Shown here: positions 25,607 through 29,216 of the stretch, piece after piece | Layout of the letters: every line of letters begins with the position of its first letter | How positions within the stretch are numbered: position 1 is the stretch's first letter | DNA from: Phreatobacter stygius | GTDB taxonomy: Bacteria; Pseudomonadota; Alphaproteobacteria; Rhizobiales; Phreatobacteraceae | Assembly (NCBI RefSeq): GCF_005144885.1 | Contig: NZ_CP039690.1 | Span: 372,001 to 436,000 of the forward strand | Direction of reading: 5' to 3' | Length of the DNA stretch: 64,000 nucleotides | The notes under the pieces: model-generated | Seen by the model: the letters and a program-made list of their open reading frames with translations, nothing else | What the model was told of the DNA's origin: nothing | Database searches by the model: none | Translations under genes and position numbers: made by a program

Positions 25607-25829
25607 GTTTTGATTCCCCCCGCGAGGGAGCGAGCCCGCGACCAAGCCCTGTTTCTCCGCTCCATCGCGTCTCGATCCACGCCCCCGCAAGGGAGCGACT
25701 GTGGCCGAGCTTCCAGTCCCCGGCCCCGTAGACGTTTCGATCCACGCCCCCGTGAGGGAGCGACTGGACCTGTCGTCGAAAACCATTCGTTTCGGCGTGT
25801 TTCGATCCACGCCCCCGTGAAGGAGCGAC
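25607..25829 (-). CRISPR. orphan CRISPR array, type I-C-like repeat, 4 repeats and 3 spacers
   Basis: On the plus strand three 31-base repeats start at 25669, 25734 and 25799. They begin GTTTCGATCCACGCCCCC and end GGGAGCGAC; the copy at 25669 has GTCTC and the last has GTGAAGGAGCGAC. A degenerate 28-base copy lies at 25607-25634. All three spacers are exactly 34 bases (25635-25668, 25700-25733, 25765-25798). The reverse complement starts GTCGCTCCC and ends GTGGATCGAAAC, the known pattern of type I-C repeats, so transcription is probably on the minus strand. The degenerate repeat is then the leader-distal one, as is usual. No cas gene lies within the window. Confidence 0.85.
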
Positions 25830-25900
25830 TCTCACAGCCCTAACATATTGCTGCGGCGTGATAAAATTGGCCAGTTGCGCGAACCGGACCGTCCGGAGAG
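25830..25900 (-). promoter_or_regulatory. possible CRISPR leader remnant
   Basis: The bases next to the best-preserved end repeat include locally A/T-rich pieces (CCTAACATATTGCTG, GTGATAAAATTGG) in an otherwise very GC-rich region, on the side where a type I-C leader would lie. No promoter consensus is clear. Confidence 0.3.
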
Positions 25901-26046
25901 CCCTACTCTTCCGAAGCCGCGCAGCCCGACCCGGAAAACGTGATTGGGAAGAGTGGTTTGGCAGCAGCGCGAACCACCCGGGCGCGGCATGTGCGCTTCA
26001 GGTTCGCGCAGACCCGACCGGGCGCCCCACAAATGGCATCGCCGGC

Positions 26047-26065
26047 AGGACGAGGGGCTCGTCCT
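26047..26065 (-). terminator. hairpin downstream of the TRAP binding-protein gene
   Basis: AGGACGAG pairs perfectly with CTCGTCCT around a 3-base loop, 12 bases beyond the stop codon on the minus strand. No strong T-run follows. Confidence 0.45.
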
Positions 26066-26077
26066 CGCCGCCTCGCC

Positions 26078-27145
26078 CTACGCCTCCCTTGCCCCCAGCG
26101 CCGCATGCAGCGACACCCGCGTCCAGGGCGTGATGCGCGCCTGGAAGGCGGTGTAGCTGTCCGCCACCTTGCGGGCCATCGGGCTGCGGGTGCCAAGATC
26201 GCGCACGAGGTCGCCGGCGTGGCGGCGGGCGAGCGCCAGCATGTCGGCCGGGAAGCCGCGCAGCTTGACGCCGTGGCTCGTCACCATCAGCGCCAGCGCC
26301 TCCATGTTGAGCCGCTCGATCTCGGCCAGCGCCACCGTCAGCTCGGCGAGGCAGGCGGCCTCGACCACCGCCTTGAGCTCGGGCTCGAGCCCGTCCCAGA
26401 GCGTCCTGTTGACCAGGAATTCGCTGGAACCGTTCGGCTTGTTGAAACCCGGCGTGTAATAGAACGGCGCGATGCGCCACAGCCCCAGCTGGAGATCGGC
26501 GCCGGGCGAGGTGAACTCGGCGGCATCGACCACACCGCGCTCCAGCGCCGGATAGATATCGGCCGGCGGCACGGCCAGCGCGGTCGCACCGAGCCGCTGG
26601 AACAGTTCGGCGCCCAAGCCCACCATACGGATCTTGAGGCCCTTGACGTCCTCGGCCGAGTGCAGCTCGCGGCGGAACCAGCCGCCCATCGACACCCCGG
26701 TATTGCCACCCATCAGCGGCTTGAAGCCGAAGCGCCGGGAGGTCTCGTCCCAGAGCTCCTGGCCGCCGCCCTGCAGGATCCAGGCAGCATGTTCGGGCGG
26801 CGTGAAGCCGAAGGGAATGGCGGTGAAGAAGGCCGAGGCCGGCTCGCGGCCAATGCCGAAGAACGAGGCGGTATGGCCGAGCTCGACGGTGGCATTGCCG
26901 ACCGCCTCCTGCACCGCGAAGGCCGGCACCAGCTCGCCCGCCGCGAAGACCTGAACCTCGATGCGGCCAGCCGACAGGGTGGCGATGCGCTCGGCGATGC
27001 GCTGGGCGGAGAAGCCGGGGCCGGGCAGGTTTTTCGGCCAGGAGGTCACCATGCGCCAGCGCCGCGCGGCTTGCGCGCGCGCTGGCGTTGGTGCGGCGAT
27101 CAGCCCGGCGGCGGCGGCAAGGGTCAGGCGGCGGTCGACGGTCAT
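26078..27145 (-). CDS. TRAP transporter substrate-binding protein (DctP family) in a thiamine-regulated unit
   Basis: The product has 355 residues. A signal peptide (MTVDRRLTLAAAAGLIAAPT, cleaved after ARAQ) precedes a DctP fold: WRMVTSWPKNLPGPGF, LSAGRIEVQVFAAGELVPAF, and the helix-strand MVGLGAELFQRLGATALAVP with the conserved arginine nearby (GLKIRMVG). Residues VPPADIYPALERGVVDAAEF match the substrate-pocket loop of the family, which binds organic acids (TakP-like) for a membrane DctQM pair. No dctQ or dctM gene is nearby. The gene starts 4 bases after thiD and no promoter separates them, so it is probably co-transcribed with thiM and thiD under the TPP riboswitch. A thiamine-related ligand is an inference. 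Confidence 0.85.
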   Translation of the reverse strand: MTVDRRLTLAAAAGLIAAPTPARAQAARRWRMVTSWPKNLPGPGFSAQRIAERIATLSAGRIEVQVFAAGELVPAFAVQEAVGNATVELGHTASFFGIGREPASAFFTAIPFGFTPPEHAAWILQGGGQELWDETSRRFGFKPLMGGNTGVSMGGWFRRELHSAEDVKGLKIRMVGLGAELFQRLGATALAVPPADIYPALERGVVDAAEFTSPGADLQLGLWRIAPFYYTPGFNKPNGSSEFLVNRTLWDGLEPELKAVVEAACLAELTVALAEIERLNMEALALMVTSHGVKLRGFPADMLALARRHAGDLVRDLGTRSPMARKVADSYTAFQARITPWTRVSLHAALGAREA

Positions 27146-27149
27146 CGGA

Positions 27150-27947
27150 TCACCACCAGGCGTGGAAATGATGGGTTGGACCATGGCCATGGCCAACCTC
27201 GAGGCGGTCGGCCGCGGCGATCGCCTTGGTGACGAAATCCTTGGCCTCGGCCACGGCATGGCCGAGTTCGAGACCCTTGGCGAGGCCGGCGGCGATCGCC
27301 GACGACAGCGTGCAGCCGGTGCCGTGGCTGTTCTTGGTGACGATCCGCGGCGCTTCCAGCCGCGCCACCCGGTCGGGCAGCACCAGGAGATCGACACTGG
27401 TCGGCCCGGTGCCGTGGCCGCCCTTCATCAGCACGGCGCGCGCGCCGCGGGCGATCAGCATCCGGCCTTGCGCCAGCATGTCGTCCTCGCCCATGGCGAC
27501 CGGCTGGTCGAGCAGGGCGGCCGCCTCCAGGAGATTGGGCGTGATCAGCATGACCTCGGGGATCAGCACGGTGCTCAGCGCGCTGATCGCCTGGGGGTTG
27601 AGCAGGCGATGGCCGGAGGCCGCCACCATCACCGGGTCGAGCACGACATTCACCGCGTTGTGGCGCTTCAGCCCGGCGGCGACCGTTTCGATCACCTGCG
27701 GCTGCGACAGCATGCCGATCTTCACCGCCCTGACGGCGAGATCGGAAAACACCGAATCGATCTGGGCCGCGATGAAATCCGCTGGCACGTCGAAAATGCC
27801 CTGCACGCCCATGGTGTTCTGGGCGGTCAGCGCGGTGATCACGCTGGCGCCATAGACGCCGAGCGCGGAAAAGGTCTTGAGGTCGGCCTGGATGCCGGCG
27901 CTGCCGCCGGAATCCGAACCCGCAATGGTCACCGCGATCGCCGTCAT
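27150..27947 (-). CDS. thiD: hydroxymethylpyrimidine/phosphomethylpyrimidine kinase
   Basis: The product has 265 residues of the ribokinase-like PfkB superfamily. It shows VTIAGSDSGGSAGIQADLKT at the start, ALTAQNTMGVQGI, VKIGMLSQPQVIE, LDPVMVAASGHRLL, and the anion-hole motif KNSHGTGCTLSSAIAAGLAK with the catalytic Cys. ThiD phosphorylates HMP and then HMP-phosphate to the pyrophosphate, the pyrimidine half of thiamine. It lies between thiM and dctP with a GGGAGG site before the ATG. The presence of thiM and thiD without thiC/thiE/thiG here suggests salvage of thiamine moieties. Confidence 0.95.
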   Translation of the reverse strand: MTAIAVTIAGSDSGGSAGIQADLKTFSALGVYGASVITALTAQNTMGVQGIFDVPADFIAAQIDSVFSDLAVRAVKIGMLSQPQVIETVAAGLKRHNAVNVVLDPVMVAASGHRLLNPQAISALSTVLIPEVMLITPNLLEAAALLDQPVAMGEDDMLAQGRMLIARGARAVLMKGGHGTGPTSVDLLVLPDRVARLEAPRIVTKNSHGTGCTLSSAIAAGLAKGLELGHAVAEAKDFVTKAIAAADRLEVGHGHGPTHHFHAWW

Positions 27948-27987
27948 GGCCGATCCTCCCTTGGACAGTGGTCTTCGCTCCGGCGCG

Positions 27988-28740
27988 TCAGACGACCCGC
28001 GCGCGGGTGGCGAGCTTGCCGGACTCCAGCCCGTGCAGCGCATCGAGATAGGCGACGGCAAAACTGCCGGGGCCGGCTGCCTGTTCCGCCGCGATCTCGC
28101 CGGCGACGCCGACCGCCACCAGGCCGCAGGCGCAGGCCTCGAACGGATCCTCGGCGACCGCCAGGAAGGCCGCGATGATCGCCGCCCCGGCGCAGCCCAT
28201 GGCGGTCACCTTGGCCATCAGCGGATGGCCGTTGGGCGTGCCGGCCACGCGCGCGCCGTCCATCACATGGTCGGTCGCGCCGGTCGCCGCGACGACGGTC
28301 TTCAAGCCCAGCGCAAAAGCGTCGACCGGCCGGCCCTGGCTCAAGGCGGCGATCTCGGCCTCGTTGCCGCGGATGACGGTCGGCCCGGCCGCCGCGATCT
28401 CGCGGGCGAACAGGGCCCGGCTCGGCGAGCGTTCGATGAACACCGGGTCGAGCACCCAGGGCAGCGCCTTGGCTTTGGCCGCCCCGATCGCCAGCCGGAT
28501 CACCTGGCGCCGGCCCTCGTCGAGCGTGCCGAGATTGACCAGGAGCGCGTCGGCGCCGCCGACAAAGGCGCCGATCTCCTCCGGCGAGGTGGTCATCGAG
28601 GGCACCGCACCGATCGCCAGCAGGGCATTGGCGGTGAAGCCCTGGGCAACCCCATTGGTGATGCAGTGGATGCGCGGGCGGCGCGCCCGGATCTTGTCGA
28701 TCAGGGCTGCGGCATTCCAGGCCAGTGCGGCTGCGGCCAT
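27988..28740 (-). CDS. thiM: hydroxyethylthiazole kinase
   Basis: The product has 250 residues. It has the ThiM pattern: PRIHCITNGVAQGFTANALL, AIGAVPSMTTSPEEIGAFV, LLVNLGTLDEGRRQVIRLAI, WVLDPVFIERSPSR, VIRGNEAEIAAL and the C-terminal AKVTAMGCAGAAIIAAFLAV with the catalytic Cys region. ThiM phosphorylates the thiazole alcohol for thiamine salvage. The ATG at 28740 comes 41 bases after the TPP riboswitch core on the minus strand, so it is the first gene controlled by it. thiD follows with a 40-base gap. Confidence 0.95.
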   Translation of the reverse strand: MAAAALAWNAAALIDKIRARRPRIHCITNGVAQGFTANALLAIGAVPSMTTSPEEIGAFVGGADALLVNLGTLDEGRRQVIRLAIGAAKAKALPWVLDPVFIERSPSRALFAREIAAAGPTVIRGNEAEIAALSQGRPVDAFALGLKTVVAATGATDHVMDGARVAGTPNGHPLMAKVTAMGCAGAAIIAAFLAVAEDPFEACACGLVAVGVAGEIAAEQAAGPGSFAVAYLDALHGLESGKLATRARVV

Positions 28741-28780
28741 CACCGCCCCCCGTTCAAGGCGAGCCTGATATCCATCTCGG

Positions 28781-28866
28781 TTTCCTCCGCCGGCATGACC
28801 CGGTTCAGGTACGACGGGTTGACCGTTGAACGGTCTCTCAGCCCTTTGAGGGCACCCCGACGAGAC
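28781..28866 (-). promoter_or_regulatory. TPP riboswitch (THI element)
   Basis: Read on the minus strand, the segment contains the conserved THI-box landmarks in order: TCGGGGTGCCC, GGGCTGAGAGA, ACCCGTCGTACCTGAACCGG with GGTCATGCCGGCGGAGGAAA. This is the thiamine-pyrophosphate aptamer. Thiamine pyrophosphate binding in proteobacteria usually masks the ribosome site of the following gene; here that gene is thiM, and thiD and dctP follow on the same transcript. Confidence 0.95.
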
Positions 28867-28979
28867 AACTCCCGACGTGGTAGGCCAAGCAGAACCCGGG
28901 TGCAAGGGTGGACCACGCACAGCGCCCTTGCGAACATCCCGTCCGTCATGGAATCTCCCTGACCGCAACGAGGCACGCC

Positions 28980-29216
28980 ATGATCCCCTTTTTCGTCCAG
29001 ATCAAATGCCAGCTCGGCAAGTCCTACGAGGTCGCCGCCCAGCTCGCCGACCGCGAGATCGCGTCCGAGATCTATTCGACCGCCGGCAATTTCGACCTGC
29101 TGGTGAAGTTTTATGTCGAGACCGGCGTCGACATCGGCCATTTCGTCAATGAGAAGGTGCAGATCATTCCGGGCATCCAGGACACCCACACGATCATCAC
29201 CTTCAAGGCGTTCTGA
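28980..29216 (+). CDS. standalone Lrp/AsnC ligand-binding (RAM) domain protein
   Basis: The product has 78 residues and consists only of the alpha/beta RAM domain found at the C-terminus of Lrp/AsnC regulators: MIPFFVQIKCQLGKSYEVAA, EIYSTAGNFDLLVKFYVETG and QIIPGIQDTHTIITFKAF. There is no helix-turn-helix. Standalone RAM domains form octamers and bind amino acids or modulate partner proteins. It is divergent from the TPP riboswitch/thiM unit; whether it senses thiamine-related ligands is unknown. The ATG at 28980 is used. Confidence 0.85.
   Translation: MIPFFVQIKCQLGKSYEVAAQLADREIASEIYSTAGNFDLLVKFYVETGVDIGHFVNEKVQIIPGIQDTHTIITFKAF

Follow-up and report, generated by a model that had tools for sequence, protein, structure and literature searches.

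What does a TRAP (tripartite ATP-independent periplasmic) receptor bind when its gene is placed among genes of thiamine salvage? This question is raised by a stretch of 64,000 nucleotides from the genome of Phreatobacter stygius, referred to here as the window, in which a thiamine pyrophosphate (TPP) riboswitch aptamer is followed on the minus strand by thiM, thiD and the gene of a DctP-family receptor. Organic acids are the main known ligands of TRAP receptors, and few importers of the thiazole half of vitamin B1 have been described. The clade to which this receptor belongs is conserved and orphan, and its association with thiM and with the TPP riboswitch is firm. Its ligand is probably the thiazole half of vitamin B1 in general, and we are somewhat inclined to read the gene as encoding the periplasmic receptor of a TPP-regulated importer of this half, most likely for carboxythiazole (5-(2-hydroxyethyl)-4-methylthiazole-2-carboxylate, cHET).

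Linkage of the receptor to thiM and the TPP riboswitch

An initial annotation, made from the DNA letters alone, had described the aptamer, thiM, thiD and, four bases further on, a receptor with an export signal. Rfam, Pfam and the coordinates agree with this description (Table 1): the stop codon of thiD (27152-27150) and the ATG of the receptor gene (27145-27143) are four bases apart, and the export signal was judged by eye from an N-terminus consisting of RR, a hydrophobic stretch and ARAQA. Among the Pfam and NCBIfam profiles (E <= 0.001), the receptor matched only DctP/TRAP families, reaching 138.6 bits with PF03480 (cut-off 23.4) and 51.4 with NF037995 (cut-off 50), while its score of 66.1 with TIGR00787 stayed under the cut-off of 175.05; no homology to components of ThiBPQ, ThiXYZ, ThiT, ThiV, CytX or ThiW was detected with the same profiles. 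The gene order suggests that the riboswitch, thiM, thiD and the receptor gene are co-transcribed. A consensus scan of the minus strand from 25800 to 29100 revealed no promoter-like site, which is weak evidence for a single transcript because the scan covered one promoter type.

The conservation of thiM-thiD-receptor synteny, proposed in the initial annotation as a check, was assessed in two sets of loci, in which loci and genomes carry L and G numbers. Among 61 related genomes, 26 carry the receptor, including the window's own, and the other 25 receptors are 46-90% identical to that of the window. Either thiM or thiD adjoins the receptor gene in all 25 of these relative loci, with thiD upstream in 25/25 and thiM upstream in each of the 24 whose contig extends far enough. 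The riboswitch precedes thiM in all 24 complete loci, in 18 at the Rfam gathering score and in six by a model built from the others; five of these six had not been given to Rfam and one (L059) remained under the gathering score. A first Rfam scan of the relative loci with flanks of 1.5 kb showed no riboswitch, as those stretches ended before it, and wider ones revealed it. The second set comprises the best 80 of at least 575 public loci and therefore leans to the clade. Here, thiM or thiD lies on the receptor strand in 73 loci (thiM in 68, thiD in 70) and the riboswitch was found in 71; in seven of the nine loci without it (L094, L122, L126, L139, L144, L156, L166), the contig begins at or shortly ahead of the first gene. 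The two sets overlap by two, L089 and L135 being the same sequences as the relative loci L043 and L057. Carriers fall into 16 family labels of the window's order, and some loci are titled as other orders. The titles of the public loci include Pseudolabrys, Microvirga, Roseibium and Pseudovibrio, which we take to be Hyphomicrobiales, as well as Geminicoccaceae, Rhodospirillales, Azospirillaceae, Sneathiella, Pacificispira, Curvivirga and one gammaproteobacterial metagenome-assembled genome.

In a FastTree phylogeny of 124 sequences, the 106 clade members (two of them duplicates) group together without any outsider at a support of 0.80, the outsiders being 14 homologues from the searched genomes and four solved structures. 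Since most members were chosen by similarity, the tree shows separation from paralogues and not the full family tree. The same separation was seen in 20 stretches at the score boundary. All nine of the loci L174-L182 (38-44% identity) have an adjoining dctM and neither thi genes nor a riboswitch, compared with L170, L171 and L173, which are thi-linked with a riboswitch and no dctM. Six carriers checked at the boundary are likewise all thi-linked, five with a riboswitch and the sixth ending at a contig end. The two remaining stretches, L169 (G153) and L172 (G179), hold homologues (45-46% identity) whose surroundings contain neither thi genes nor a riboswitch nor dctM. Both genomes have ThiG; these receptors are perhaps relics or have an altered ligand. 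Eight other paralogue stretches (L067-L074) contained dctM in six cases, and thiM, thiD or the riboswitch in none.

Gene content of the carriers and the two halves of vitamin B1

Which half of the vitamin is concerned can be addressed by the biosynthetic genes of the carriers. Within the 61 genomes, ThiM (E < 1e-15, a cut of our own) is present in 26/26 carriers compared with 6/35 non-carriers, whereas a thiazole synthase (ThiG, or Thi4 in G032) is found in 5/26 carriers and 28/35 others (p = 2.6e-6). No association was observed for ThiC (16/26 vs 23/35, p = 0.79). The receptor occurs in 11 of 12 thiazole-only auxotrophs, defined by ThiC without thiazole synthase (exception: G057), in none of the six pyrimidine-only auxotrophs with thiazole synthase and without ThiC, and in 10 of 16 genomes with neither. 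The contrast between the two auxotroph types yields p = 0.0004, or p = 0.015 with one genome per genus, in Fisher tests that treat genomes as independent. ThiG is matched only partially in G009, and ThiC is fragmented in G004 and G048. Thi4 as a general substitute for ThiG was discarded: a strong match covering the whole profile was restricted to G032 (1.7e-64), which has no full ThiG, and the best matches of the other 60 genomes were at most as strong as 1.6e-9.

The pattern extends to 397 genomes of the order, where ThiG was found in 14 of the 77 carriers, defined by our own cut of E <= 1.2e-157, and in 179 of 320 others. Eleven of the 15 genomes just under this cut were inspected, giving three thi-linked receptors, two solo genes and six dctM-linked paralogues; after the addition of the three, the counts are 14/80 and 179/317 (p = 1.6e-10), and beyond the first 61 genomes they are 10/51 and 151/285 (p = 7.7e-6). 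Among the 77 carriers, 12 of the 16 families consist solely of carriers without ThiG, and the 14 ThiG-bearing ones are confined to the other four.

Variant operons bear on the same question. Downstream of the receptor and on its strand, thiX and thiY are present in eight of the 80 best public loci (L109, L110, L112, L114, L122, L126, L141, L162), and a ninth (L115) has thiZ and thiX; tenA belongs to the same run in L114, L122, L141 and L162, and Pfam confirmed the ABC ATPase, the permease, the NMT1/THI5 receptor and TenA of L141. The gene thiC directly precedes the receptor in L146, L166 and L168 and directly follows it in L054 of G032, with the order riboswitch-thiM-thiE-thiD-receptor-thiC. 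In L157 and L159 the riboswitch directly precedes the receptor alone. Two loci (L113, L117) show riboswitch-thiM-receptor without thiD, their thiM being confirmed by Pfam, and L144 has thiM-receptor without thiD, with about 360 bases of contig ahead of the thiM match in which no riboswitch was found. No cluster of open reading frames within 2.5 kb behind the receptor recurs in more than 19 of the 80 loci, these clusters being annotated only for thiXYZ and tenA.

A pyrimidine vitamer such as hydroxymethylpyrimidine (HMP) or formylaminopyrimidine (FAMP) would be suggested by the pyrimidine kinase gene thiD, which is the gene immediately preceding the receptor in the window and also lies upstream of it in the relatives. 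We regard this ligand as highly improbable, given the absence of the receptor from all six pyrimidine-only auxotrophs, the operons with thiXYZ-tenA or thiC, in which the pyrimidine half is already covered, and the three loci that keep the pairing of thiM and receptor without thiD. HMP, one of the breakdown products named in the initial annotation, was rejected on the auxotrophy pattern and these operons.

Fold and binding pocket

The ten best matches of the AlphaFold model in the PDB are TRAP or keto-acid solute receptors, with TM-scores of 0.84-0.89 to the query. TakP of Rhodobacter sphaeroides (PDB 2HZK/2HZL), an alpha-keto acid TRAP receptor, shares the fold and the subfamily, with 32% identity over 327 structure-match columns. 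In TakP, pyruvate is held through a cation by Tyr100, Gln156, Arg177, Glu214, the main chain of Trp215 and Glu240 (PMC1839085). This site is not retained in the window protein, which has Phe, Ser, Arg, Glu, Phe and Lys at these six positions (Ser152 and Lys236 replacing Gln156 and Glu240) and in which Tyr99 is changed to Phe, Ile47 to Pro, Pro243 to Gly and Val245 to Ser. Throughout the clade (106/106), Arg177 (Arg173 in the window protein) and Glu214 are kept and the Ile47, Tyr99, Trp215, Pro243 and Val245 sites are changed, the Trp215 site being Phe, Leu or Ile in all members and the Ile47 site Pro in 102. Tyr is found at position 99 in 17 of 18 comparison sequences and in no clade member. 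Gln156 and Glu240 occur together in all 18 comparison sequences compared with 34/106 clade members, position 240 being Lys in 65/106; judging from the alignment, this lysine may often replace the co-bound cation. Asn, Gly and Glu at window positions 238, 239 and 242 are present in 106/106 clade members compared with 0, 0 and 2 of the 18.

Alternatively, the protein could still be a receptor for alpha-keto acids or lactate that the thi operon has acquired, perhaps to handle pyruvate while TPP-dependent enzymes stand idle. Judging by their titles, several of the nearest solved structures have keto acids or lactate as ligands, some together with a cation, and such a reading would fit the conserved Arg177 and Glu214 and the members with both cation ligands. 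However, the five sites altered throughout the clade, the loss of Tyr99 and the predominant loss of the Gln156-Glu240 pair speak against it, and it leaves the recurring riboswitch link unexplained, so that we consider it decidedly unlikely.

The invariant arginine helps to distinguish between the remaining ligands. Hydroxyethylthiazole (HET), HMP and thiamine carry no carboxylate, and cHET has one beside the ring nitrogen. Across a set of some 30 TRAP receptors whose ligands have been solved, the conserved Arg contacts a carboxylate group or, in rare cases, a sulfonate or phosphate, and one receptor without this Arg binds ethanolamine (PMC4646407). The neutral alcohol HET, with an otherwise unchanged mechanism, is the textbook substrate of ThiM, and everything in the genomes that points to a thiazole ligand holds for it just as well. 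Yet it has no acid group for an acid-clamping Arg that is found in 106/106 members, and the receptor that lacks this residue is the one that binds ethanolamine; HET is therefore disfavoured relative to cHET and appears unlikely. Physiological data are consistent with cHET: for E. coli without thiG, sub-picomolar cHET suffices and HET is needed at micromolar concentration, cHET use by Ostreococcus requires ThiM, and phosphorylated cHET is a ThiE substrate (PMC5899164).

Thiamine, a thiamine phosphate or another derivative of the whole vitamin would agree with control by a TPP riboswitch, and the phosphates of thiamine monophosphate and TPP could meet the Arg, as glycerol 3-phosphate has been seen in a TRAP receptor (PMC4646407). 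According to the established pathway, however, whole thiamine would need neither ThiM nor ThiE, and it would need no ThiD, although these are the usual neighbours of the receptor; the pattern with thiazole synthase but not with ThiC would also be left without explanation. We therefore judge a whole-vitamin ligand to be very unlikely. The proposal of the initial annotation, thiamine or one of its breakdown products, thus stands with respect to a B1-related compound, for which the operon, the riboswitch, the clade and the phyletic distribution give good support, and not with respect to HMP and thiamine; the thiazole half fits best, and the plain alcohol less well than cHET. Carboxythiazole as the specific ligand, as suggested by genome comparison and pocket residues, is in our estimation slightly on the likely side.

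Putative membrane partner and proposed mechanism

As stated in the initial annotation, no dctQ or dctM accompanies the receptor: the nearest DctM or DctQ gene lies more than 500 kb away, and the locus does not encode a complete TRAP transporter. The P. stygius genome gave 21 matches for DctP, 17 for DctM (some of them two halves of a single gene) and 13 for DctQ, and several other receptors also seem to be without a membrane pair. DctM was found nearby in 0/25 relative loci and in one of the 80 best public loci (L108, on the opposite strand), a negative that refers to DctM only, as the DctQ queries of the locus scan gave no match anywhere. The lack of a nearby DctM in 25/25 relative and 79/80 public loci could indicate that the receptor feeds no transporter and instead buffers a B1 vitamer in the periplasm or partners a sensor for it. 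However, DctM genes are present elsewhere in the genomes of 26/26 carriers, so that a shared pair is available, and we hold a buffer or sensor to be very improbable. For the same reason, it is plausible that the receptor shares a keto-acid pair of the TakQM type.

For import of cHET, we propose the following sequence. At low TPP, the riboswitch would permit the joint production of thiM, thiD and the receptor; the exported receptor would clamp the carboxylate of cHET by the invariant Arg173 and pass this compound on to a DctQM/TakQM pair whose genes lie elsewhere. ThiM would then phosphorylate the hydroxyethyl group of the imported thiazole, and ThiE would join the product to HMP pyrophosphate made through ThiD. 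In its most specific and still tentative form, which may well not hold in every part, the clade would be a dedicated high-affinity cHET receptor, with Lys in place of a cation ligand in many members, that borrows the membrane pair of keto-acid paralogues, one TakQM serving several receptors.

Several observations weigh against this reading. Binding, uptake and transcript are deduced from genomes and models, as is the membrane partner. The window's own genome contains thiC, thiO, thiG and thiE, so that imported thiazole is not needed there; P. stygius looks like a full thiamine prototroph, in which the receptor would be a cost-saving extra. ThiG is also present in the 14 order-wide carriers mentioned above, and neighbourhoods were seen for 35 of these 80 carriers, the rest being classed by score. 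Eight of the 11 receptor-bearing thiazole-only auxotrophs belong to one genus, and the genomes are thus not independent. Both thiM and thiD are missing in seven of the 80 best public loci (L093, L146, L157, L159, L164, L166, L168), and two of them (L093, L164) have no riboswitch either, despite the presence of contig. With regard to the pocket, the retention of both cation ligands in some members and of Tyr100 in 38/106 means that one ligand for the whole clade is not certain, and Phe at the Trp215 site is shared by 7UG8, a keto-acid receptor.

Features of the locus

The features of the locus are listed in Table 1.

Table 1. Riboswitch and genes of the thi-linked receptor locus (positions within the window)
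Feature	Position	Strand	Evidence
TPP riboswitch aptamer	28764..28869	-	Rfam RF00059, 71.2 bits vs gathering score 54.3, full model 1-105
thiM, hydroxyethylthiazole kinase	27988..28740 (alternative GTG start 28743)	-	Pfam PF02110 (HK) 8.3e-58; NCBIfam NF006830 above cut-off
thiD, HMP/HMP phosphate (HMP-P) kinase	27150..27947	-	Pfam PF08543 (Phos_pyr_kin) 3e-93; TIGR00097 above cut-off
thi-linked TRAP receptor, DctP/TakP type, 355 aa, export signal	26078..27145	-	Pfam PF03480 3.3e-40; NF037995 above cut-off; AlphaFold pLDDT 86.7

Two other TPP riboswitches are present in the P. stygius genome, one before thiC and one before thiO-thiG-thiE. Within the window, an open reading frame of 11 codons (MDIRLALNGGR, 28775-28740, minus strand) starts eight bases past a GGAGG in the aptamer, and its stop codon overlaps the ATG of thiM. 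A thiM-like open frame begins close to the corresponding place in L043, L047, L057 and L061; this start near the aptamer GGAGG in some relatives raises the possibility that the ribosome site itself is hidden by the aptamer. At 25668-25831, immediately beyond the receptor gene, three direct repeats of 34 bases with a spacing of 65 resemble a CRISPR array.

Comparison with known systems

If the proposed function holds, the TRAP family would gain a new role, the TPP-regulated capture of a vitamin precursor. Thiazole auxotrophs with a pyrimidine pathway of their own would have a candidate importer, and an under-recognised currency of vitamin B1 its missing import step. The gene could also serve as a marker for the use of carboxythiazole, whose uptake route is unnamed in the available part of PMC5899164. 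With the receptor, it would become directly testable which of the two compounds, cHET or HET, cells take up, and its lack of a membrane pair of its own also makes it possible to test whether several receptors share one TRAP pump. Among the open-access papers listed in a literature survey, none was seen to connect TRAP or DctP receptors with thiamine, with its thiazole or hydroxyethylthiazole or with thiM and thiD, and an earlier mention is possible; PMC3687685, which came up for a link of this kind, concerns an unrelated TRAP system as far as its available part shows.

Unlike TakP, the window receptor has no QM genes beside it and stands behind a TPP riboswitch. The best match in both structure and sequence is the BB0280 receptor of Bordetella bronchiseptica (PDB 4YIC/4YZZ; 36% identity), which also departs from TakP at pocket positions 99 and 100 but, unlike the window protein, keeps Gln156 and Glu240; its ligand is presumably picolinate. 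ThiXYZ likewise imports one half of vitamin B1 and belongs to the same gene run as the receptor in some loci, but it is of the ABC type with an NMT1/THI5-type receptor and serves pyrimidine vitamers, the other half of the vitamin. The available part of a B1 gene table contains no thiazole transporter (PMC10881298). The HET transporters ThiW and ThiU, as listed in one study (PMC6593275), share with the receptor the proposed role of thiazole uptake for ThiM; in the available part of that study, ThiW occurs in only 64% of HET auxotrophs and TRAP is not mentioned.

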